A DNA stretch of 32,788 bases, taken from the NCBI GenBank assembly GCA_030018575.1, contig JASEIA010000003.1:1-32788 (forward strand), written 5' to 3'. The notes under the pieces were generated by a model. The model saw only the letters and a program-made list of their open reading frames with translations. It was not told where the DNA came from and did no database searches. A program made the translations under genes and the position numbers. Shown one piece after another: positions 2,283 to 31,921 of this stretch. Source of the stretch: Nanobdellota archaeon. GTDB taxonomy: Archaea > Nanobdellota > Nanobdellia > SCGC-AAA011-G17 > GW2011-AR17. Every line of letters starts with the position of its first letter. Within the stretch, counting starts at the first letter, position 1.

Positions 2283-2326
2283 ATAGAGCCCCTGACACTC
2301 CGCTGCGCTACGTTCCGAGCTGCTTT

Positions 2327-2374
2327 AAAACGCAAAGCGTTTTCGGCATGCCGAAACTTTGCGAGTTTCCAGCA
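2327..2374. repeat. Three-hairpin dispersed element, copy 1
   Basis: Three hairpins stand in a row: AAAACGC-aaa-GCGTTTT sharing bases with TTCGGC-at-GCCGAA, then GAAACT-ttgcg-AGTTTC, ending TTTCCAGCA. The first two and the ending recur at 8142-8196. The third stem is a different sequence in the other copy yet remains palindromic, so the structure itself appears conserved. It lies upstream of the TATA box of the ATPase gene, outside the predicted transcript. Confidence 0.6.
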
Positions 2375-2431
2375 CTTCCTTTGTTTCACTCGGAAGACTG
2401 CGGCGGATAGATATATCGCCCACACGCTAAT

Positions 2432-2441
2432 CTTTATATAT
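2432..2441 (+). promoter_or_regulatory. TATA box for the secretion ATPase gene
   Basis: CTTTATATAT is centred about 52 bases before the ATG at 2489. Transcription would start near 2462 and give a leader of about 26 bases containing a GAGGT Shine-Dalgarno five to six bases before the ATG. This is one of the few genes here with a real leader. Confidence 0.55.
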
Positions 2442-2488
2442 CTTTGTGCCCTAATGAATAACGAGGATAAGTTAAAAAAAGAGGTTAT

Positions 2489-5400
2489 ATGGCAGACGAA
2501 AACACCAAAATCCCGCCGGGCGGCTACCAGGTTATAAAGGAAGGCAGCGAAGAGGTAATAAGGGTTAATTATGAGCAGGCTCCTTACTCTCCATCCATAG
2601 AGGACAACCCGACTGTCATGATGGATGCCATTGACAAGCTTGCAGAAAATCCTTCTGTTGCAAGGCTCATATTCCTGCAGAGGCGCTTTTATGAATATCC
2701 TTACGAACAGACGCAGATGCTTGTCGAGGTTGCAAACCTCTACAGCTATCTGATAAAATCAAAGAAAGTTCTGAGCCCTGAGTCTTTGGGAACGTCATTT
2801 GAAGCGCAGGGAACGCTTGCAGAAAGGTATGCTGTCATACACTCAATTGTTTTTGAGCTTCTGCGCTCTGACCCATTGGGAGCTTATGTTGAATTAAAGC
2901 GCGTTTTAAGGGCTGAAGTGGCAAAGCAGGAAGCAACAAAAGACCCCAGGCAAAAGGATTCAAGAGAAATATTCTTGGGGCTTTTGAAGGCAATCCTGAA
3001 CATGTTTGAAGAGATGAAGCTTGTCAAGGCAGCTTCTCATTACCTTGCAGGATATAATTTAGGCGACAGGGGAGTGTACCGGCTTTTTTTCAGGGCTGTG
3101 ATTACGCCTGACTTCATGTTCACAAGAGTGATGGCAAATCCCCCTCTTGGCGGGGAAGAGATGGAAGTGTACAGCATTGACAAGGACACAAGCGTCACTT
3201 TATTCAGGGTTAATGACGACATAAAATTCCTTTACCACATGACCCCTCCCGAGTTCACAATCAGCGAGGACAAGTACACGCTTGTTGACATGGCAAAAAC
3301 AGTGCTTTCAGAGCACCAGCCGAAAGAGGGCCAGTTCCTTGACCCGCACAAATTAAGAAACACATTCGCAAATATCGGAAAGGATTTATTGAGAGAGCTT
3401 GCAGAGGCGCAGAATGTAGAGCTTTCAATGAAGGACATAAAGCTTCTTACTGAAATACTCATAAGGCATACAATCGGATTTGGCTTCATGGAGCTTATCT
3501 TAAAGGACCAGAAAGTGCAGGATGCGCAGGTTAATTCGCCAAACGGCGAAGTTCCAATATTTGTGCTGCATGCTGATTATGGGAACTGCACTTCAAACCT
3601 TATACCTGCAAGGACTGACACTGAAAGCTGGGCTTCAAAGTTCAGGCTCCTGAGCGGCAGGCCTTTAGACGAGGCAAACCCTATACTTGACACTGAACTG
3701 CATCTTCCTAATTCCACTTCAAGAGTCTCGATAATTACAAGGCCGCTTAATCCTTACGGGCTTGCATTTTCTTTCAGAAGGCACAGGGATGAGCCGTGGA
3801 CCCTTCCGTTATTTGTCAAGAACAGGATGCTTAACCCTCTTGCAGCAGGGCTTATCAGCTTTCTTGTTGACGGAACAAGGACAATGCTTGTTGCAGGGAC
3901 AAGGTCAAGCGGAAAAACCTCTTTGCTTGGCGGATGCATGATTGAGATAATGAGAAAAAATCGCATTATTACGGTGGAGGACAGCGTTACAGGCGATACT
4001 GAGCTTGTATCTTTCAGAAAAGATGCAGGATATGATATTTCAACATTTGAAGGGCTGTTTGACTCGCTTAAGGAAAAATCCAGCACTATAAACAGCAGGG
4101 AATTCATCAATAACCCCGGATTTAAAGTATTTGCATTTGACAATAAAGGAAAGATAAGGCTTGCAAAAGCAACAAAACTGATAAGGCACAAGGTAACCAA
4201 GCCTATTTATGAAATAACAACTGCCACGGGCAGGATAATCAAGGTAACAGGGGACCATTCGCTATTCAGGATTGGCGAGAGGGATGTTAAGCAGGAAATT
4301 AAGGCGTCAGAAATTAAGGAAGGCGATTTCATCCTTACGCCGAGGAGGCTCTTGTTCAAATGCAAAGAAAAGCCCTACTGGAATATAATGCAGAGCCTGC
4401 TGAAATTTCACATGGACAAGGACATTTTTGTTTCCGGAGACGATTTTGCCCGCACTCTTGCAAAAAGCAGGGGAAAAATAAAAAAAGCATGCAGGAAGCT
4501 AGGGTATAAGCCGGTTACTGCAAATAGCTGGATAAGGAAAGGCATTCTGCCCTTAAAGGCAGCAAATGAAATTGGCATAACAGGCAGAGTGAACAGGCTT
4601 AAGCTCGGCAGGAATTCCGGGTTTGTCCCTGCTACAATAAGGCTGGACAGCCTCTTCCTTTCATTTTTAGGGCTTTGGCTTGCTGACGGCTGTTACGATG
4701 CGCGCTCGGTAATATTATCAGTCAGCAGCGCAGAGGAAAGGAACATAGTGAAAGCAATAGCCCTGAGATACGGCTTTCCGGTTAAAATGCATAGCGACGG
4801 ATTTTCTTTAATGATAAATTCAAAGTCATTTAAGTTCCTTATGAAGGAGCTTTGCTGTTTCAGCGGCAATGCTTATACAAAGCATATACCTCCATGGGTT
4901 TTCAACCTTTCCAGAAAACAAAAATCGTCTTTTTTAAGGGGGCTGTTCAGCGGAGACGGATGCGTTTCTGACAAGGAGATTGTAATCTCGCTTGCGTCAA
5001 GAAAGCTGCTATCTGGCATACAGACTATTCTTCTTGATTACGGCATAATATTCAGGATTAATGCCCTGAGAAAGGCAAAATTTCATCCCAATGACAGGAC
5101 ACGTGACGGAAGAATCAGCGCATTAAATTCCATTAATAGCTTTAAGGAGATTGGATTCTTGCAGAAATATAAGAATATGCGCCTCTCAGCATTGCTGAAG
5201 AAGGTTTCCACGCACGATTCCAGCGATGTTGTCCCCCTGCCGTTAAGCGTCAGGAATGAAATTGCAAGCGCCCTTTCGCAAAAGCAATTTAGTACAAATG
5301 ATTATTTAATAAGAAAAAATGAAATTGGCAGGGGCAAGCTAAAGAAAATAGCAATGGCTTTTAAATCTGCAAAAAGAGGCAAACTCATTTCTTTACTTCT

Positions 5401-6337
5401 GGAAAACCTTGCAGAAAGCGACATATTTTGGGATAAAGCAGCAAGGGTTAGAAAAACAGAGCCTGAACAGTATGTGTATGATATCTCAGTGCCTGGCTAT
5501 GAAAATTTTGTGTGCAACAATATCCTTGCCCATAACACCCTTGAGCTTCCGACAGAAGCAATGAGAAAACTAAATTATGACATACAGCCATTGAAAGTAA
5601 GGGCTGCATTGATGGAAGGCGGCAATGAAATGGCTGCTGCAGAGGGAATAAGAACCTCGTTAAGAATGGGCGACAGCGCGCTGATTATCGGCGAGGTAAG
5701 GAGCAAGGAAGCGATTGCATTGTATGAGGCAATGAGAATCGGCGCAATGGCAAACACTGTCGCAGGCACCATACACGGCGACTCGCCTTACGGAGTTTTT
5801 GACAGGGTTGTCAATGATTTGGGGGTTCCAAGGACTTCATTCAAGGCAACTGACATAATAATTGTTGCAAATCCTTTAAAGAGCCCTGACGGGCTTCACA
5901 GATGGAGAAGGGTTACGCAAATCACAGAAGTAAGGAAAGAATGGGAGCAAGACCCGATGACTGAAGGGGCTTTTGTTGATTTGATGAGGTATAATTCACA
6001 GACAGACCAGCTTGAGCCGACTCCTGAATTGATTAACGGCGAATCAGAGATTTTAAAGACGATTGGGGCAAATGTAAAGGAGTGGACAGGCAACTGGGAC
6101 GCGATATGGGACAACATAATGCTCCGCGCTGAAATAAAAAAGCTGATTGTTGAGTATTCGCAGCGAACAAAGAATCCGCTGATGCTTGAAGCGAAGTTTG
6201 TAATACAGGGAAATGACGTATTCCACAGGATTTCAGAGCAGGTTCTTGAAGAGGCAGGGCACATAGATACAAAGAGAATTCTTTTTGAGTGGGAAGAGTG
6301 GCTCAAGAAGGAAGTAAGAAGAAAGCAGATGGCGTGA
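2489..6337 (+). CDS. FlaI/KlbA-type (type II/IV) secretion ATPase interrupted by an intein
   Basis: The mature protein (764 residues after splicing) is a cytosolic hexameric ATPase of the archaeal GspE/PilT/VirB11 superfamily, which drives pilus assembly or secretion. Walker A is GTRSSGKTS at about residues 472-480 of the precursor. The acidic box ITVED is followed, after the intein, by TLELP; Walker B is DSALIIGEVR and the histidine box TIHGDS. The N-terminal ~430 residues are the extended region usual in archaeal members, ending in the SRVSIITRPL strand before the ATPase core. The ATG has GAGGT at good spacing. The next genes converge from the other strand, and no platform (TadC-like) gene is adjacent, so the partners must be elsewhere or the three small membrane proteins may be involved; that last point is only a guess. 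Confidence 0.9.
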   Translation: MADENTKIPPGGYQVIKEGSEEVIRVNYEQAPYSPSIEDNPTVMMDAIDKLAENPSVARLIFLQRRFYEYPYEQTQMLVEVANLYSYLIKSKKVLSPESLGTSFEAQGTLAERYAVIHSIVFELLRSDPLGAYVELKRVLRAEVAKQEATKDPRQKDSREIFLGLLKAILNMFEEMKLVKAASHYLAGYNLGDRGVYRLFFRAVITPDFMFTRVMANPPLGGEEMEVYSIDKDTSVTLFRVNDDIKFLYHMTPPEFTISEDKYTLVDMAKTVLSEHQPKEGQFLDPHKLRNTFANIGKDLLRELAEAQNVELSMKDIKLLTEILIRHTIGFGFMELILKDQKVQDAQVNSPNGEVPIFVLHADYGNCTSNLIPARTDTESWASKFRLLSGRPLDEANPILDTELHLPNSTSRVSIITRPLNPYGLAFSFRRHRDEPWTLPLFVKNRMLNPLAAGLISFLVDGTRTMLVAGTRSSGKTSLLGGCMIEIMRKNRIITVEDSVTGDTELVSFRKDAGYDISTFEGLFDSLKEKSSTINSREFINNPGFKVFAFDNKGKIRLAKATKLIRHKVTKPIYEITTATGRIIKVTGDHSLFRIGERDVKQEIKASEIKEGDFILTPRRLLFKCKEKPYWNIMQSLLKFHMDKDIFVSGDDFARTLAKSRGKIKKACRKLGYKPVTANSWIRKGILPLKAANEIGITGRVNRLKLGRNSGFVPATIRLDSLFLSFLGLWLADGCYDARSVILSVSSAEERNIVKAIALRYGFPVKMHSDGFSLMINSKSFKFLMKELCCFSGNAYTKHIPPWVFNLSRKQKSSFLRGLFSGDGCVSDKEIVISLASRKLLSGIQTILLDYGIIFRINALRKAKFHPNDRTRDGRISALNSINSFKEIGFLQKYKNMRLSALLKKVSTHDSSDVVPLPLSVRNEIASALSQKQFSTNDYLIRKNEIGRGKLKKIAMAFKSAKRGKLISLLLENLAESDIFWDKAARVRKTEPEQYVYDISVPGYENFVCNNILAHNTLELPTEAMRKLNYDIQPLKVRAALMEGGNEMAAAEGIRTSLRMGDSALIIGEVRSKEAIALYEAMRIGAMANTVAGTIHGDSPYGVFDRVVNDLGVPRTSFKATDIIIVANPLKSPDGLHRWRRVTQITEVRKEWEQDPMTEGAFVDLMRYNSQTDQLEPTPELINGESEILKTIGANVKEWTGNWDAIWDNIMLRAEIKKLIVEYSQRTKNPLMLEAKFVIQGNDVFHRISEQVLEEAGHIDTKRILFEWEEWLKKEVRRKQMA
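3983..5536 (+). other. LAGLIDADG intein inside the secretion ATPase
   Basis: This in-frame 518-residue insertion (precursor residues 499-1016) splits the conserved VED-TLELP segment. It starts with SVTGDTEL (block A, Ser1) and has TGDHSLF (block B, with the TxxH-type histidine). Two dodecapeptide motifs of a homing endonuclease follow, LGLWLADG near 726-733 and LRGLFSGDG near 817-825. It ends YVYDISVPGYENFVCNNILA, then His-Asn, with Thr as the +1 extein residue. All splicing residues (Ser1, block B His, penultimate His, terminal Asn, Thr+1) and both aspartates of the nuclease motifs are present, so it should splice and may still be an active homing nuclease. Between blocks B and C is a basic segment that may help bind DNA. 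Inteins are known in KlbA-family ATPases of Methanocaldococcus and Pyrococcus; whether the site is the same needs an alignment. Confidence 0.92.
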
Positions 6338-6442
6338 GTAGACTTGTAGGCAAGTAGTTAGTAGGTATGTAGGACTGTAGCAAGCAGCGGGCGGAAAGAA
6401 AAGGCAGAGCTCCGCTGTGAATTAAATCAATTAAAAGAATTT

Positions 6443-6976
6443 CTATTCCCTGCTCGCAATGAACCTTATCGCCTGCGCCGCAATAACCAGAAGCAGGAAC
6501 ATTCCAAGCACTCTCGGGTGGAACACAATCTTCCCAACCTGCCCTGTGACAGAAGAGCCGTCTGTTGCATTTGTCCCGCCATAGATTGTCTGTATCTGCG
6601 CGCCGTAAACCTGCGTAAGCGCATAAACCAGGATTACAATGCAGAGTATGACTATGACCCAGGCATTGCCTTTCTCGCTCAGCGCGGCGCCGATTCTTTC
6701 CTCTTTTACGCCTGCAAACATAAACAGGAGCATAACCAATACAAGGAACACAAACAACACAGTGAACCACGGCGTGATTATCTTTACAATGCCCAGCAAG
6801 TCAGGCGTTAATATGAAAAGGAATCCAATCGCAAATGCAATAAGCGCATTCAGCCCCCTGTTCTTTCCAAAGAAGCCGAACTTCTCAAGCAATGCAAACA
6901 GTATTGCAAACACAAACAGGAATACAAATACAGGGACAAAATAATCCAGAATCCCTATATCCAAAATGCTTGCCAT
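6443..6976 (-). CDS. Small polytopic membrane protein, paralog 3 of a three-gene run
   Basis: Four to five hydrophobic segments in 177 residues. The N-terminus matches the two upstream genes: an ILDYFVPVFVFLFVFAILFA segment, a LEKFGFFG turn, then a second helix beginning NALIAFAIGFLF. It ends in a charged SRE tail. The family is common as hypothetical membrane proteins in DPANN genomes as far as I recall, with no function I can name. The ATG immediately follows the stop of the preceding gene, with GGAGG about 13 bases upstream, so translation is likely coupled. It is the last gene of the operon and converges on the secretion ATPase across about 105 bases that contain only GTAG-rich low-complexity sequence. 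Confidence 0.75.
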   Translation of the reverse strand: MASILDIGILDYFVPVFVFLFVFAILFALLEKFGFFGKNRGLNALIAFAIGFLFILTPDLLGIVKIITPWFTVLFVFLVLVMLLFMFAGVKEERIGAALSEKGNAWVIVILCIVILVYALTQVYGAQIQTIYGGTNATDGSSVTGQVGKIVFHPRVLGMFLLLVIAAQAIRFIASRE

Positions 6977-7546
6977 TTATTTATGCCTGCCTCCGCCAAA
7001 TCCAAACTGGCCAGGCGCCTGCTCAACAACCTTGTTCAAGTCTGACCTCTTGTCGCTGAATATCCATAGCAATAATACGAATATACCCACTGCCAATAAT
7101 ATTGCCTTATCTTGAGATGAAAGCACAAGCCATCTTGGCCATGCCGTATTAATTCCCGGTATTGAGCTGAATACAGACCAGATGATTCCGACAACAGCGC
7201 CAATCATTCCAATGAAGAAAGGCCAGCCTGTCCATCCTGTTGACTCTCCTGAGCCTAATATTCCCAATATCAAAAGCAGCATAAGCAATACCAATACTAT
7301 CATTGATATCTTTGGCAGGAACTGCTGGACTGTCGTGATAACTGCAGGCACCCTGACAAAGAAGAATGCAATGACTGCGGCAACAACTATGTTGATGTTC
7401 TTTGTGTCTGCCCCAAACAATTTTATCTTTTGAAGCAATGCAAACATTATTGTGAATACAAGCATGAAAGGCAAAATAACATCATAAAAGCCCATCTGCT
7501 CCAGCTGTTTGATCATGTCACTGAAATTTACGTCTTCAAATACCAT
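6977..7546 (-). CDS. Small polytopic membrane protein, paralog 2 of a three-gene run
   Basis: 189 residues from the ATG at 7546 (MVFEDVNF). The longer track start at 7615 is unlikely because it would overlap the upstream gene by 68 bases and adds a basic, non-homologous head. A strong GGAGGAG sits just before the chosen ATG, inside the end of the upstream gene. The hallmark is FYDVILPFMLVFTIMFALLQ followed by KIKLFG and a NIVVAAVIAFFFV helix, closely parallel to its neighbours. About five membrane helices are predicted, with a Gly/Phe-rich basic tail (FGFGGGRHK). One base separates it from paralog 1. Function unknown. Confidence 0.78.
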   Translation of the reverse strand: MVFEDVNFSDMIKQLEQMGFYDVILPFMLVFTIMFALLQKIKLFGADTKNINIVVAAVIAFFFVRVPAVITTVQQFLPKISMIVLVLLMLLLILGILGSGESTGWTGWPFFIGMIGAVVGIIWSVFSSIPGINTAWPRWLVLSSQDKAILLAVGIFVLLLWIFSDKRSDLNKVVEQAPGQFGFGGGRHK

Positions 7547-7547
7547 A

Positions 7548-8108
7548 TTACTTCTCCTCCTTCTTGTCGCTGTCTTTGTCTTTCTTTCCGCCGACAACAA
7601 AATATATTGCCCCAACTATCACTATTACAAATATGATTGGCATGAGCGCGGTGTTAAGGTTCATTGCAAAAAAGCCAATTAGCGGGTCAAGCCATCCGAA
7701 TGAATTCAGGAATATCAGGATAACGGCAATAAACATAACCAGCGTCAGGAACCCAACCCAGTATTTTCTTCCCTCAAGGCTGAACGGCTTGTCTCCCATG
7801 AATGAGCCCGCAAGCATAAGGAAGCAGACAACTATTATGAGTATTAATGCGACATTGGGCAGCGAAACCTGCAGCGATGCCACGACCTGCTTTGCAGCGA
7901 CTGTGAAGAATGCAATTGAGAATGCAACCATTGAATTGATGCTTTTTCGCGGGTATTCCTTGTCCCCCACTTTCTCAACGCCGAAAATCCTTGTCTTTTC
8001 AAGAATCCCGAAGACAATAACGAAAACAAGCAGGAAAGGGAGTATTACGTCAAAGAATCCAAGCTTCTCAAGGAAGGTTATTACAGCTCCGAATGCGGTT
8101 TCTGCCAT
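7548..8108 (-). CDS. Small polytopic membrane protein, paralog 1 of a three-gene run
   Basis: 186 residues. After a short amphipathic start (MAETAFGAVITFLEKLG) come FFDVILPFLLVFVIVFGILE, KTRIFG, and a helix VAFSIAFFTV. More helices follow and the tail is lysine/aspartate-rich (GKKDKDSDKKEEK), presumably cytoplasmic. It is the longest-spaced member, with an insertion VEKVGDKEYPR after the FG turn. It leads the operon; a TATA box at 8226-8234 would give a leader of roughly 95 bases that contains the three-hairpin element copy 2. The three genes surely arose by tandem duplication. Their role is not known to me. Confidence 0.8.
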   Translation of the reverse strand: MAETAFGAVITFLEKLGFFDVILPFLLVFVIVFGILEKTRIFGVEKVGDKEYPRKSINSMVAFSIAFFTVAAKQVVASLQVSLPNVALILIIVVCFLMLAGSFMGDKPFSLEGRKYWVGFLTLVMFIAVILIFLNSFGWLDPLIGFFAMNLNTALMPIIFVIVIVGAIYFVVGGKKDKDSDKKEEK

Positions 8109-8141
8109 TTTTTCATTCCTGCGTCATTCAAAACCCGCTTG

Positions 8142-8196
8142 AAAACGCTTTGCGTTTTCGGCGTGCCGAAAATCCTTTTGGATTTTCCAGCATCAC
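8142..8196. repeat. Three-hairpin dispersed element, copy 2
   Basis: AAAACGC-ttt-GCGTTTT, TTCGGC-gt-GCCGAA, then GAAAATCC-tttt-GGATTTTC and the ending TTTTCCAGCATCAC. Hairpins one and two are nearly identical to copy 1 at 2327. The loop of the first and one loop base of the second have changed, while stems are kept. Another small palindrome (AAAGC-ctA-GCTTT like) follows at about 8197-8211. The element lies in the predicted leader of the membrane-protein operon. Confidence 0.62.
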
Positions 8197-8224
8197 AAAG
8201 CCTAGCTTTGCAAGGTTTTTCAGC

Positions 8225-8234: not shown

Positions 8235-8280
8235 ACTAAGAATTAGAGCAATACAATATATAAACTTTCCGCTGGGCGGG

Positions 8281-8306
8281 AAGCTTCGAACGAAGTGAGA
8301 AAGCTT
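8281..8306. repeat. AAGCTT-armed dispersed element, copy 1
   Basis: AAGCTT at each end encloses CGAACGAAGTGAGA. The same core and arms recur in a double form at 14478-14526. It lies in the gap between the membrane-protein operon and the PRC-barrel gene. The remainder of 8307-8385 is A-rich and shows no gene. Confidence 0.55.
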
Positions 8307-8385
8307 TTCGAGCAGGCAATACAAAAAAACCGCGCTAAAATATAATTAAAAATAATGAAAGAAAAGAATAAACAAAAAAAGGCAG

Positions 8386-19014: not shown

Positions 19015-20391
19015 CTAAATAAGCGCAAGGAACACAGCAGCGGGCATTATCACTGCCTTGCCGTTATGCATTGTTGTTTTGGAAAGTATAAGCGGCGCCT
19101 TGAATATATTATAATGCGAGAAATCACTCTCACTGACTTTTTCCTGCCATTTTACTTCTACTGCCTGAAACCGCTTTCCCTTCCTGACAACAAAATCCAC
19201 TTCCCCTTTCCTGTCGCGGTAGTACCATACGCTTTCAAGGAGGCGGTTTGCCTTGCGCTTGAGGTGCTCAAGAACTATGCCTTCTATTGCAAATGGCTTG
19301 TTCAGCTCATTAATGCAGCATTCGTGCTTGCCATTCACATATCCGGAAAATGCGCTGAACAGGAATGTGTCCAAAAAATAAAATTTTTTCTGTTTCCTGA
19401 ACACAGGGGCCTTCTTGTTTAGGTCTATCTTATGGACAAAATTAAGCAGCATAAGAGACTCCAGCAGCTCAAGGTATTCCGCCACTGTCTTATGCGAGCC
19501 TATGCTTGTTGCTTTTGCAATGGAATGGAAGGCCAGCTCCGCGCCATACTTGCTCGCCAAAACAGAAATTATTTCCCTGAAAATATGCTCTGATTTTTCC
19601 AGCTTGCTTAAATCCCCAAGTATCCAGTTTACATAATCCTCATATAATTCCTCCGTTATCGCTCCTGTTTCATTAAACTGGTAACCGGACGATAAAAATC
19701 CGCCGGATATAAGGTAATTGTCCATATGGCGGTTTAGCTCGCCCAAAAATGGGATAATATACGCCGCCTTTTGCAGCAGGGCATCAGAAAATGCCTCTTC
19801 CATGGAAAGCGGATTTAAAGCTGCAAGCTCTTTTTTCAAATCTCCGCTCCCAAACAGCCTTACATAATCAGAAAATGAAAGCGGCAAATAGAACATGGTC
19901 TTAACGCCCCTCCCTGGAAATCGTTCTGTTCCATGCTTGAGGTCGCTTGCCACAGAGCCGGTGAAAACAAGCAGGGTGCAGAGCGAACTGTCGGCGAGGT
20001 ACTTTATTGCCCTGAACCATTCCTTTACAAAAGTTATTTCATCAAAAATCACATAGTTCTCCTTTATGTTAAATCGCAGGAGCCACTCCTTATGAAGTTC
20101 TGCCGCCTTTACTATCTCGTTGAAATCTGCCAGCACATCGCATGGGAGATACAGGAACTGCCTTGCATCAGCGCCGTGTTTAAAAACTGATTCCCATATT
20201 AACAGCTTTAAGGCTGTTGTCTTTCCAACCTGCCTTGGGCCCCTTATGGAGCATATGCCCTTTTTCTCGCCGACAAGGGAAGGGATATAAGCTGCTTTTT
20301 TCCCAAGGGCAATGCTGACTTTTCTGTCATGCAGCAGCTCTTCTCTGCTTTTCCACCAAGGGTTATGCTTTGCGAGAAACTCAAATTCCAT
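19015..20391 (-). CDS. DUF4143-type AAA ATPase, copy 1
   Basis: 458 residues from the ATG at 20391; the track start is a TTG four codons earlier. Domains in order: an N-terminal helix ending NPWW, an AAA domain with Walker A GPRQVGKTT and Walker B YVIFDEITFV, and a sensor-like FTGSVASDL. A winged-helix segment (FHSIAKATSIGSHKTVAEYL) follows, then the DUF4143 C-terminus with a PD-(D/E)xK-like fold (GEVDFVVRKG and AVEVKWQ). Such ATPases are abundant and multiplied in archaea; a defence, mobile or DNA-related role is suspected but unknown. A TATA box 25 bases before the ATG predicts a leaderless message, and two copies of an 18-base repeat flank it. Related to the gene at 20943-22250. Confidence 0.85.
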   Translation of the reverse strand: MEFEFLAKHNPWWKSREELLHDRKVSIALGKKAAYIPSLVGEKKGICSIRGPRQVGKTTALKLLIWESVFKHGADARQFLYLPCDVLADFNEIVKAAELHKEWLLRFNIKENYVIFDEITFVKEWFRAIKYLADSSLCTLLVFTGSVASDLKHGTERFPGRGVKTMFYLPLSFSDYVRLFGSGDLKKELAALNPLSMEEAFSDALLQKAAYIIPFLGELNRHMDNYLISGGFLSSGYQFNETGAITEELYEDYVNWILGDLSKLEKSEHIFREIISVLASKYGAELAFHSIAKATSIGSHKTVAEYLELLESLMLLNFVHKIDLNKKAPVFRKQKKFYFLDTFLFSAFSGYVNGKHECCINELNKPFAIEGIVLEHLKRKANRLLESVWYYRDRKGEVDFVVRKGKRFQAVEVKWQEKVSESDFSHYNIFKAPLILSKTTMHNGKAVIMPAAVFLALI

Positions 20392-20392
20392 A

Positions 20393-20443
20393 TTGGTAGT
20401 CAAGTATCAAGACTATATAAATGTTTTGGTAGTCAAGTATCAA
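20393..20443 (-). promoter_or_regulatory. Promoter of ATPase 1 with a paired candidate operator
   Basis: The TATA box (TTTATATAG, 20412-20421) is centred 25 bases before the ATG at 20391. TTGGTAGTCAAGTATCAA occurs exactly twice, at 20393-20410 (over the start site) and 20426-20443 (over the BRE side), 33 bases apart, about three helical turns. A protein bound at both copies would block TBP/TFB and polymerase. The binder is unknown; the ATPase has its own winged-helix segment, so self-control is possible. Confidence 0.6.
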
Positions 20444-20452
20444 AATAATAAG

Positions 20453-20480
20453 CAGTTTTGGCAGTTAATTGCCCAAACTG
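20453..20480. terminator. Imperfect 11-bp inverted repeat
   Basis: CAGTTTTGGCA and TGCCCAAACTG pair at 10 of 11 positions around a six-base loop. It lies downstream (minus strand) of Lrp-like fragment 2 and upstream of the ATPase 1 promoter, so it could end transcripts from the right. There is only a weak T-run after it on the minus strand. Confidence 0.35.
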
Positions 20481-20507
20481 GAAGAGGCGCTTCGCTGCTA
20501 TTGCTTC

Positions 20508-20837
20508 TTAAGGCAAATACTTCATCGTGTGCTCTTTCACATACTCTAAGAACTCAAAGCCCTTCACGTAATCTGAGAATTTATTTCTGAATTCCTCGAT
20601 TAATGCATAAAGCTCTTCTGTATCTTTTATATATAACTCAATTTCAAGGTCAGCTCCGCCTATTGTCTCGTCAAGATAGGCAATAGCGGGCTTTGCCTGC
20701 ATAAAAGCCTTTATCTGCTGCAGGATATCTTTTGAAATGTTTCTCAGGAAGAAGTAAATCTTGTAGTATTTGCAGCCGAGAACATTTATATCCAAAGCAG
20801 GCCTGAAGCCGAGGATGTATGTATTAAAATGGAAGAG
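20508..20837 (-). pseudogene. Truncated Lrp/AsnC-like regulator, C-terminal (RAM-like) part
   Basis: The track lists 95 residues from a TTG, but the frame stays open to a TAG at 20838-20840 and the extra residues (YILGFRPALDINVLGCKYYK) read like normal protein. The fold pattern KIYFFLRNISKDILQQIKAF, then IGGADLEIELYIKDTEELYA and a YVKEHTMKYLP ending resembles the ligand-binding RAM domain of Lrp/AsnC-family regulators, especially the longer archaeal ones. The N-terminal helix-turn-helix is absent and there is no good start, so it is probably a remnant. It lies between the two DUF4143 ATPase genes; a shorter piece of the same tail follows ATPase 1. Confidence 0.6.
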
Positions 20838-20942
20838 CTAACAAACTATCTGGAACAATCAAACGAAACTGAAACGCTTGCTGAAGAGCAAAGAAAGCAG
20901 AAGCTTAGGGCGCACATTGCTTGCCGGGGAATGCAGCGGCCT

Positions 20943-22250
20943 TCACAGCAGCAAAAACACGCTTGCAGGAACAATAGCCATGTTTTCCTTCTCAATGAAC
21001 TCAAAGCTGTCTTTTGAAAGGAGGATTTTATTTTTAAGCTCAACAGCGGAAAAATCGCTTTTTTTAACCTTGTTCTGCCACTTCAGCTCAATGCCTGTAT
21101 CTTCCACATAGAAATCAACTTCTTTTTTCTGGTAATAATAGCAAACCCTGCCGAATTTTCTGGCAAGATGCTCTGCCACAATGCCTTCTATCAGCCGCGG
21201 GACTTCCTCTTCCCTTATCCTTGTTTTTGTAAGCTCCCTCTTGAAAACATGGAAGAGAAAAGGGTCTATAAAGTAAGCTTTTCTCATCCTTGCAAATGCC
21301 TCCACCCCCTTCTTTAAATCAATCGGGAACATGTTTCGCAAAACAAAAAGGTTTTCGAGGATTTCCAGATACTCCCTTATTGTTACATGGGAGCCTATCT
21401 CCATTTCCTTGGCAATTGAGTTAAGGGAGAACCTTGTGCCATAATTTTTCAGCACTCCCAGCAATGTTGATGAAGCTATTCTCTCGCTTCTCTCTGCTTT
21501 GGCTATGTCTGCAACAAGCCACTTCCAGTATATATCATAGGTTTCGTCCCTTATCTTTCCGTCTTCCATAAGCTCATACATGCTTCTTGGAAACCCGCCG
21601 CATATTGTGTAAGAGCTGAACAGCCTGTCTATTTCGCTGAAATAAAAAAGGAGCTTTTTTGCCGCTCTGTTCACTTCTGCGGCATTCAGGGAGGAAATTT
21701 CTGCGGCAAGCTCGCGTTTAAGGCTCTCGCTTCCGAACACCATGCAGAAATCCTTGAACGACAACGGCATGAAATGCACTGTTTTAATCCTTCTGCCCGG
21801 AAATGTTTCTTTTTTAAGCTCAATTGAAGAAGAGCCGGTGATGTGTATTATCTTGTTTCTTGACATGGGGGAATCCAGAATAAACTTTATAGCCCTCTGC
21901 CAATCGTCAACAAAGGTTATTTCATCAAAAAAAAGGTATTTTTTCCCTGCCGCCAGCGCATCTGAAATTCTTACAATCTCAACAATGTCATTGAAATCCT
22001 TCAGCACGTCACAAGAGAAATAAAGCGCCTGTTTCGGATTAACGCCTTTTTCAATGAGGTTTTTTATGTAAAGCTTTATGAAGGTGGTTTTCCCAACCTG
22101 CCTTGGGCCAGTAATAAGCTGATTCTCTTCAGTGAATGAATATCCTATCTTATGCTTTCTTGCAATGCTCTCCTTTACTTTTTCATCTTCGCTTATTGCC
22201 GCCTTGTCTTCCCACCATGGGTTCTGCTCTGTGATTTGCCTTATTTCCAT
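20943..22250 (-). CDS. DUF4143-type AAA ATPase, copy 2
   Basis: 435 residues from the ATG at 22250 (MEIRQITEQNPWW). The 24 extra residues of the track ORF come from the promoter and are rejected because a TATA box is centred 26 bases before this ATG. Same architecture as copy 1: Walker A GPRQVGKTT, Walker B YLFFDEITFVDDW, ITGSSSIEL, a winged-helix segment (LNSIAKEMEIGSHVTIREYL), and a nuclease-like C-terminus (KEVDFYVEDTGIELKWQ). The shared NPWW start, spacing and C-terminal ending (IVPASVFLLL here, MPAAVFLALI there) show they are paralogs, clearly diverged. Function unknown; see copy 1. The message is probably leaderless. Confidence 0.85.
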   Translation of the reverse strand: MEIRQITEQNPWWEDKAAISEDEKVKESIARKHKIGYSFTEENQLITGPRQVGKTTFIKLYIKNLIEKGVNPKQALYFSCDVLKDFNDIVEIVRISDALAAGKKYLFFDEITFVDDWQRAIKFILDSPMSRNKIIHITGSSSIELKKETFPGRRIKTVHFMPLSFKDFCMVFGSESLKRELAAEISSLNAAEVNRAAKKLLFYFSEIDRLFSSYTICGGFPRSMYELMEDGKIRDETYDIYWKWLVADIAKAERSERIASSTLLGVLKNYGTRFSLNSIAKEMEIGSHVTIREYLEILENLFVLRNMFPIDLKKGVEAFARMRKAYFIDPFLFHVFKRELTKTRIREEEVPRLIEGIVAEHLARKFGRVCYYYQKKEVDFYVEDTGIELKWQNKVKKSDFSAVELKNKILLSKDSFEFIEKENMAIVPASVFLLL

Positions 22251-22270
22251 TATTGTTAATAGAATGTCAA

Positions 22271-22338
22271 AGTTTATAAGCTTTTTGATAGTTAATATCA
22301 GAAAAGTATCATTTTTTGACATTTAAATATCAAAAAGC
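22271..22338 (-). promoter_or_regulatory. Promoter of ATPase 2 with inverted-repeat candidate operators
   Basis: The TATA box (GCTTATAAAC) is at 22272-22281. GCTTTTTGATA (22280-22290) and its exact reverse complement TATCAAAAAGC (22328-22338) bracket a 37-base stretch that also contains TGATA-gttaa-TATCA and AAGTATCA. The last word also occurs in the operator repeats of ATPase 1 (AAGTATCAA). The layout suggests a regulator that recognises GATA/TATC-type half-sites at both genes. Confidence 0.5.
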
Positions 22339-26662: not shown

Positions 26663-26710
26663 AAAAACACGCGTTTTTCCGCAGATGTTGGAAATCCAGC
26701 GGGATTTTTC
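26663..26710. repeat. Degenerate three-hairpin element, copy 3
   Basis: AAAAAC-acgc-GTTTTT, then TTTCC-gcagatgtt-GGAAA, then AAATCC-agcg-GGATTT. The order and type of hairpins match copies 1 and 2 (2327, 8142), and the first keeps the GCGTTTTT side. The middle hairpin has a longer loop, and much of the primary sequence has changed. It lies between the diverging TctA-family and phospholipase D-like genes. Confidence 0.4.
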
Positions 26711-31526: not shown

Positions 31527-31911
31527 ACGAAAGAGAATTGTTAAAATTAATGAAAAGATGGGGCTTGGGATTCACAGGATGATTCAAGCATGCATAAAAC
31601 AAGGGCTGCCAGAGCCTAAGTTTGAAGAGCGCCAGGGATTTCGGGTGGTTTTCAGGAAGGATGCCTTCAGCGAAGAATACCTGAAAAGCATCAATCTAAA
31701 TGAGAGGCAGATAAAGGCCGTGGTGCTGGCAAAAAGAAAAGGGGAAATAACCAACAAACAGTATAGGGAATTATTTGGGATAACTGACAGAACAGCACTC
31801 AGGGATTTGAATGCAGCCTGTGAAAAAGGGGTTTTTCAAAGAATCGGCGTAACAGGAAGAGAAACAAAATATGCCTTACCCCGACATAAACCCGACATAA
31901 ACCCGACATAA
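31523..31911 (+). pseudogene. C-terminal end of an AlbA_2/RecG-like ATP-binding regulator, frameshifted
   Basis: The track gives 117 residues from 31558. They match the end of the AlbA_2 (divergent AAA-4, Schlafen-like) putative transcription regulators. The match covers a helix MIQACIKQGLPEPKFEERQG, then the winged-helix LNERQIKAVVLAKRKGEITN and YRELFGITDRTALRDLNAAC, ending GRETKYALPRHK. The usual 'RWG.GI.RM' lead-in is split between two frames: RWGLG lies in the frame opening at 31523 and IHRM in the other, so a base has been lost near 31568. The N-terminal AlbA_2 and ATPase parts (several hundred residues) are missing. It is a remnant caught between two copies of an antitoxin start. Confidence 0.6.
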
Positions 31912-31921
31912 ACCCGACATA
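31880..31921 (+). repeat. Four tandem 11-bp units
   Basis: CCCGACATAAA occurs three times perfectly, with a fourth partial copy. It overlaps the stop codon of the AlbA_2-like fragment. Since 11 is not a multiple of three, each unit is read in a different frame (PRHK, PDI, NPT). The units abut with no spacers, so this is not a CRISPR. Confidence 0.75.

Follow-up and report, generated by a model that had tools for sequence, protein, structure and literature searches.

The best-described relatives of the repeat family studied here are short palindromes that invade genes as well as the spaces between them. As described in the portions of the literature cited here, the Rickettsia palindromic elements (RPEs) and the palindromes of Wolbachia are lineage-restricted and occupy intergenic sites as well as in-frame positions within conserved genes that are unrelated to one another (PMC10969869, PMC2229807), the RPEs of R. 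conorii end in CGTC (PMC3733652), and Methanocaldococcus jannaschii carries palindromic repetitive DNA with coding potential (Suyama et al. 2005, cited in PMC2229807 and PMC2996958). The element resembles the Rickettsia and Wolbachia palindromes in its lineage restriction and in occupying intergenic and in-frame genic sites; it differs in its host, which is an archaeon, in size (its commonest form is a 54-bp double-hairpin core, against 105-150 bp for RPEs) and in the start-stop mini-ORFs that it forms at operon junctions, of which we find no mention in those portions of the RPE and Wolbachia literature. The CGTC tag of the RPE sequence family sensu stricto is present in none of the listed element copies. 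The M. jannaschii repeats are likewise archaeal palindromes fused into protein genes, but in a different phylum, and the likeness is one of published description. Among known kinds, the element comes closest to the palindromic protein-coding repeats of Rickettsia, Wolbachia and M. jannaschii, and we regard it as a new archaeal variant of that kind.

We use the term window for the whole 32,788-nt stretch of contig JASEIA010000003.1 (Nanobdellota archaeon) that was analysed. Two copies lie where the preliminary description of this DNA had placed them, with cores at 2321-2374 and 8136-8192, and are recovered by a 30-nt pattern as well as by a covariance model. The pattern, AAAACGCNNNGCGTTTTCGGCNTGCCGAAA, matches copies 1 and 2 alone and has 0 matches in 100 shuffles. 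The covariance model, R1, was built from seven gapless copies of this genome, including copy 1 and leaving out copy 2; in the window it matches only 2321-2379 and 8136-8197, in each case on both strands because the element unit is nearly its own reverse complement. A supposed third copy at 26663-26710 does not belong to the family, having no R1 match up to E = 10 and an ordinary fold (z = -1.8). The features of the two copies are as follows.

2321..2374, + strand: copy 1, 54-bp core (R1 75.2 bits, E 1.5e-18; in the seed alignment)
2321-2348: copy 1, hairpin A, with outer arm TGC/GCA, stem 2327-2333 paired with 2337-2343 and loop AAA
2349-2374: copy 1, hairpin B, with outer arm TGC/GCA and stem 2353-2359 paired with 2363-2369
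2308..2397, + strand: larger composite around copy 1, seen in the fold, with flanking complementary arms TTCCGAG / CTCGGAA
8136..8192, + strand: copy 2, 57-bp core (R1 67.1 bits, E 2.4e-16; outside the seed alignment)
8136-8163: copy 2, hairpin A, with stem 8141-8148 paired with 8152-8159
8164-8192: copy 2, hairpin B, with stem 8168-8175 paired with 8180-8187
8130..8219, + strand: extended copy 2 (fold z = -3.5)
8196-8210: third hairpin of extended copy 2, CAAAGC-CTA-GCTTTG
8130-8135 paired with 8214-8219: closing stem of extended copy 2, AAAACC with GGTTTT
8109..8222, no strand assigned: approximate extent of the copy 2 insertion, within the 5' leader of the gene at 7548-8108 (- strand)
8128..8193, - strand: small open frame of 21 codons through copy 2, ATGCTGGAAAATCC...TTTTGA, in the direction of the downstream gene

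The copy 2 insertion separates the TATA-like box of the gene at 7548-8108 from its ATG, and copy 1 has a TATA box downstream of it; in this leader and this promoter region the copies are most likely passive passengers. The 21-codon frame through copy 2, read from the letters of the DNA, is suggestive only. The whole window holds just three perfect hairpins of at least 8 pairs, two of them supplied by copy 2, and the composite around copy 1 recurs in this genome (G000:C99, L070) and in a congener (G003:C56, L126) with 86-91% identity over 74-91 nt by blastn. When the loci are compared with those of three congeneric genomes (G001, the closest relative, G002 and G003), copy 2 is absent from the orthologous leaders in G001 and G003 and from the region before the G002 ortholog, the model matching none of the relatives' loci, and all three lack copy 1 ahead of the VirB11-like gene. 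The stretches just upstream of that gene in the congeners look different. A second hairpin-rich stretch (GCTTCGAACGAAGTGAGAAAGC) in copy 2's intergenic region, at about 8236-8330, is also absent in G001.

Several other features of the window deserve record. The VirB11-like ATPase gene (2489-6337) carries an intein with a LAGLIDADG endonuclease; since the orthologous frames are only 771-787 codons long in the three congeners, the intein is probably missing there. At 256-2226 a restriction enzyme of the Tsp45I type stands next to an N6/N4 DNA methylase. Two similar-looking ATPase genes stand near each other at 19015-22322 with short repeats common to both, the second being AAA_14/DUF4143 by Pfam, and an 11-bp tandem repeat, CCCGACATAAA, lies at the end of a small ORF (31880-31921).

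The element had first been described as a series of three hairpins. The element itself stands, but its anatomy is that of two adjoining hairpins, each with its own outer arm, and the supposed stem TTCGGC-rt-GCCGAA is the junction between them, formed by the 3' arm of the first hairpin and the 5' arm of the second, and competes with them as an alternative fold. The unit thus reads as hairpin, junction and inverted hairpin, with the canonical form TATTCGAAAA-N-loop-N-TTTTCGGATATCCGAAAA-N-loop-N-TTTTCGAATA. The window copies, laid out as X-[TT]-GAAAA..TTTTC-[G]-X' followed by Y-[C]-GAAA..TTTC-[CA]-Y', depart from it as a variant whose outer arms are TGC/GCA. Most loops are 3 nt long, and core lengths range from 45 to 71 bp (54 bp being commonest), plus one shorter outlier. 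Composites of 100-210 nt hold additional hairpins, and one four-hairpin composite is near-identical at four sites. Motifs of the form GAACGAAGTGAG are repeated at the ends of many composites.

As had been proposed from the window copies, the stems vary in sequence and yet remain paired. Across 89 copies, each counted on one strand, 97% of inner-stem pairs are Watson-Crick despite their differing sequences (1248 cells, with 18 G-U and 16 mismatched), where shuffling of partners leads us to expect 76% Watson-Crick, 8% G-U and 16% mismatched; the counts come from copies that are related to one another, and a covariance model favours paired stems, so that broken copies may be under-counted. Where two copies differ at a single stem pair, both sides have changed in 219 of 260 cases, and a separate count, made on rows from both strands, gives the same picture (324 two-sided cells where 84 are expected).

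Such pairing could mean that the hairpins are functional RNA, for example leader, processing or attenuation signals whose structure is under selection in mRNA. The strength of the folds (z -2.8 and -3.5), the retained pairing and the many copies in 5' leaders or between operon genes all agree with this reading. We nevertheless hold it to be quite unlikely: element sites are not conserved among the congeners, copies occur within PolB, PolX and topoisomerase I, copy 1 is upstream of its TATA box, and G-U pairs, which RNA selection tolerates, hardly outnumber mismatches (18 vs 16), which points to pairing at the level of DNA and not to an RNA function. An Rfam search at the gathering threshold found no match to a known structured RNA.

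The idea of a dispersed repeat family, first raised for this genome, holds and extends beyond it. R1 locates about 50 distinct places in the organism's own 1.57-Mb draft genome (G000) and roughly 15-30 elements in each of the three congeneric genomes (Nanobdellota, DPANN); all four members of the genus carry the family, and neither a lack of further copies nor unpaired stems was found. Like RPE-type coding palindromes, the family is palindromic, multi-copy and lineage-restricted. No elements were found by R1 in 14 genomes from other genera of the taxonomic family, and among the 85 remaining genomes of the order 2 have one or two strong matches, with the proviso that the genomes compared are draft metagenome bins. 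A Woesearchaeota bin (L206) has a good match. The exact palindrome TTTTCGGATATCCGAAAA occurs in 26 stretches of GTDB genomes, but only the genus members and the Woesearchaeota bin give clear model matches and the remaining stretches are apparently chance; scans of viral contigs with exact patterns gave no match.

How such a family spreads is a question on which the distribution of candidate enzymes bears. An element of REP/IS200 type had been suggested at the outset. There is some reason to think of genuine REP elements that a REP-associated Y1 transposase (RAYT/IS200-IS605) would move: the element, like the REP dimers (BIME-like), consists of short hairpins in inverted pairs, this genome has two Y1_Tnp genes, and GTAG- or CGTC-tagged dimers are described in the cited portion of PMC3733652 as occurring in genes too, some in replication and repair genes, with inserts that encode 20-30 amino acids. 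However, the distribution of Y1_Tnp does not track the elements. G001, which is 99% complete, carries elements and has no Y1_Tnp match, G005, G012 and G013 from other genera have Y1_Tnp and no elements, and neither of the two Y1 genes in G000 has elements beside it (no match in L087/L088). The element has no consistent RAYT partner, and among the listed copies no GTAG tag stands at the hairpin feet and no CGTC tag is found. We consider a REP origin improbable, and the assignment to the REP/IS200 type is not supported. A reverse transcriptase (RVT_1) was also considered as a marker; it is present in all four congeners but also in the element-free G008, and is not diagnostic. Within the families searched (Y1_Tnp and RVT_1), no candidate for a mobilising enzyme was found, a result that we count against the mobile reading preferred below.

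That the element moves, as the preliminary description had supposed, is shown by empty sites in the relatives. At about 20 of its own sites that are comparable with G001, the element is present in none of the G001 counterparts, and R1 has no match in 29 G001 loci fetched with flanking-gene probes. Among the clean cases are a 54-bp insertion into GGTATA^TAAAAC with no duplication (L092/L212) and two insertions, of 97 and 151 bp, that are bounded on either side by ATGA and ATGG, respectively (L085/L232, L085/L162). At one site (L092 2061-2119 and L129 2447-2505) G000 and G003 carry copies that differ at one position, although the flanks differ far more than the copies and the closer relative G001 is cleanly empty; a site filled in a distant relative and empty in the closest one means that loss or repeated insertion also occurs. 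At fourfold sites G000 and G001 are 63% identical, so their split is not recent and the insertions need not be recent either. Two further sites show other arrangements: at L142 2380-2660 (G003:C85) an element lies between two diverged copies, about 95 bp, of the neighbouring gene's end, and at L077 2060-2207 and L149 555-711 the orthologous site holds different elements in two species, an insertion hotspot.

Small, non-autonomous and polymorphic insertions of this kind are what one would see from MITEs, here as derivatives of an insertion sequence that has inverted repeats at its termini and duplicates a fixed target, for example TA (IS630-like). The canonical ends TATTCG...CGAATA are indeed inverted repeats and some sites adjoin TA (L092, L067), but other copies end in TGC/GCA, CAC/GTG or CCC/GGG and a constant target duplication is absent, which leaves a classical MITE unlikely; the families searched, Y1_Tnp and RVT_1, yielded no parent transposon. 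The duplications are in fact inconsistent in length: three operon junctions (two in L085, one in L086) repeat 4 bp, ATGG or ATGA, a G003 site (L143) repeats about 28 bp, and in-gene and promoter sites apparently have none. We count this inconsistency against our own preferred explanation as well. Variable flanking duplications, together with two-sided stem changes and few one-sided intermediates that resemble templated copying of one arm, would suit palindromes that do not move at all but arise and are repaired locally when replication forks switch templates. We regard this as very unlikely, since a core sequence and length common to unrelated sites, near-identical four-hairpin copies at four sites and restriction to one genus all need copying between sites.

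Elements are found in promoters, leaders, tRNA spacers, operon junctions and gene interiors. Open frames cross the element in 8 genes, two of which encode unknown proteins; the others are listed here.

DNA polymerase B (PolB): directly after the SLYPS motif
PolX: between the thumb and PHP domains
Topoisomerase I: in the C-terminal tail
FtsY: in the linker
PMT-type glycosyltransferase: within the gene
TnpB relative, L133 2140-2697: in frame

In all five proteins tested (PolB, PolX-PHP, PMT, topoisomerase I and one unknown protein) the gene is exactly 18 codons longer than in element-free congeners. The element has inserted in frame into unrelated conserved genes whose orthologs lack it, as RPEs do. 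In-frame cases at N-termini are a PorD-like gene (L164), L153 and, as read from sequence, a HAD-like gene in L126. Another tnpB (L062 3348-3477) has two element copies just upstream. Core length follows the setting, being a multiple of three in 8/8 in-gene copies and 15/17 operon-junction copies against 37/70 at other sites (combined, 23/25 vs 37/70, p = 0.0005); this p-value is indicative, for the sorting of sites into classes was done by eye and changed once, the two L062 copies having been moved out of the in-gene class (the long frame there is a probable mis-start), and relatedness among copies makes the p-values overstate independence.

At operon junctions the element is crossed by a mini-ORF that starts at an ATG near the upstream stop, runs through every hairpin and stops beside the ATG of the next gene, stop and ATG together usually reading TGAGAATG or TAAGAATG. 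These units measure 80 to 209 nt, and the coupled frame contains 1 stop in 571 codons, compared with 21 in 1140 for the other two frames (p = 0.002). At three junctions the start codon is duplicated. The exceptions are L095, which is not bridged and is a first gene with a probable promoter, and L075 and L143, which stop elsewhere. At rpoH-rpoB, G001 has a mini-ORF without hairpins, so the element entered a pre-existing frame there. One tentative reading, which we think rather doubtful as a whole, is that the element is adapted to insert at operon start codons, duplicating ATGN; the original start would then become that of the mini-ORF, whose TGA/TAA would precede the restored start by two bases (TGAGAATG), and termination-reinitiation would keep the operon coupled. 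The same joint reading would have stems rewritten as whole base pairs on copying, with synthesis templated on the opposite arm.

Taken as a whole, the patches are very probably copies of a genus-specific, non-autonomous mobile element, an inverted pair of hairpins, of which those that translation can pass have survived in transcribed or coding positions. The element would spread as a structured palindromic unit whose folded single-stranded DNA may be recognised and moved by an enzyme acting in trans. Insertions that break a frame or the coupling of an operon would be purged, and those surviving in coding sequence and operons would be the ones whose length and frame let translation cross; in this proposal the element is tolerated because ribosomes can read through it.

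Protein-coding palindromes are a long-standing puzzle, known mainly from intracellular bacteria, and their means of movement is unsettled. A small archaeal genus with high turnover, empty sites and insertions in replication genes is a natural experiment, in which copies can be compared site by site, the ends of the element defined and the frame rule measured. Any mechanism must explain the near-absence of one-sided stem changes as well as the mini-ORFs that bridge operons.
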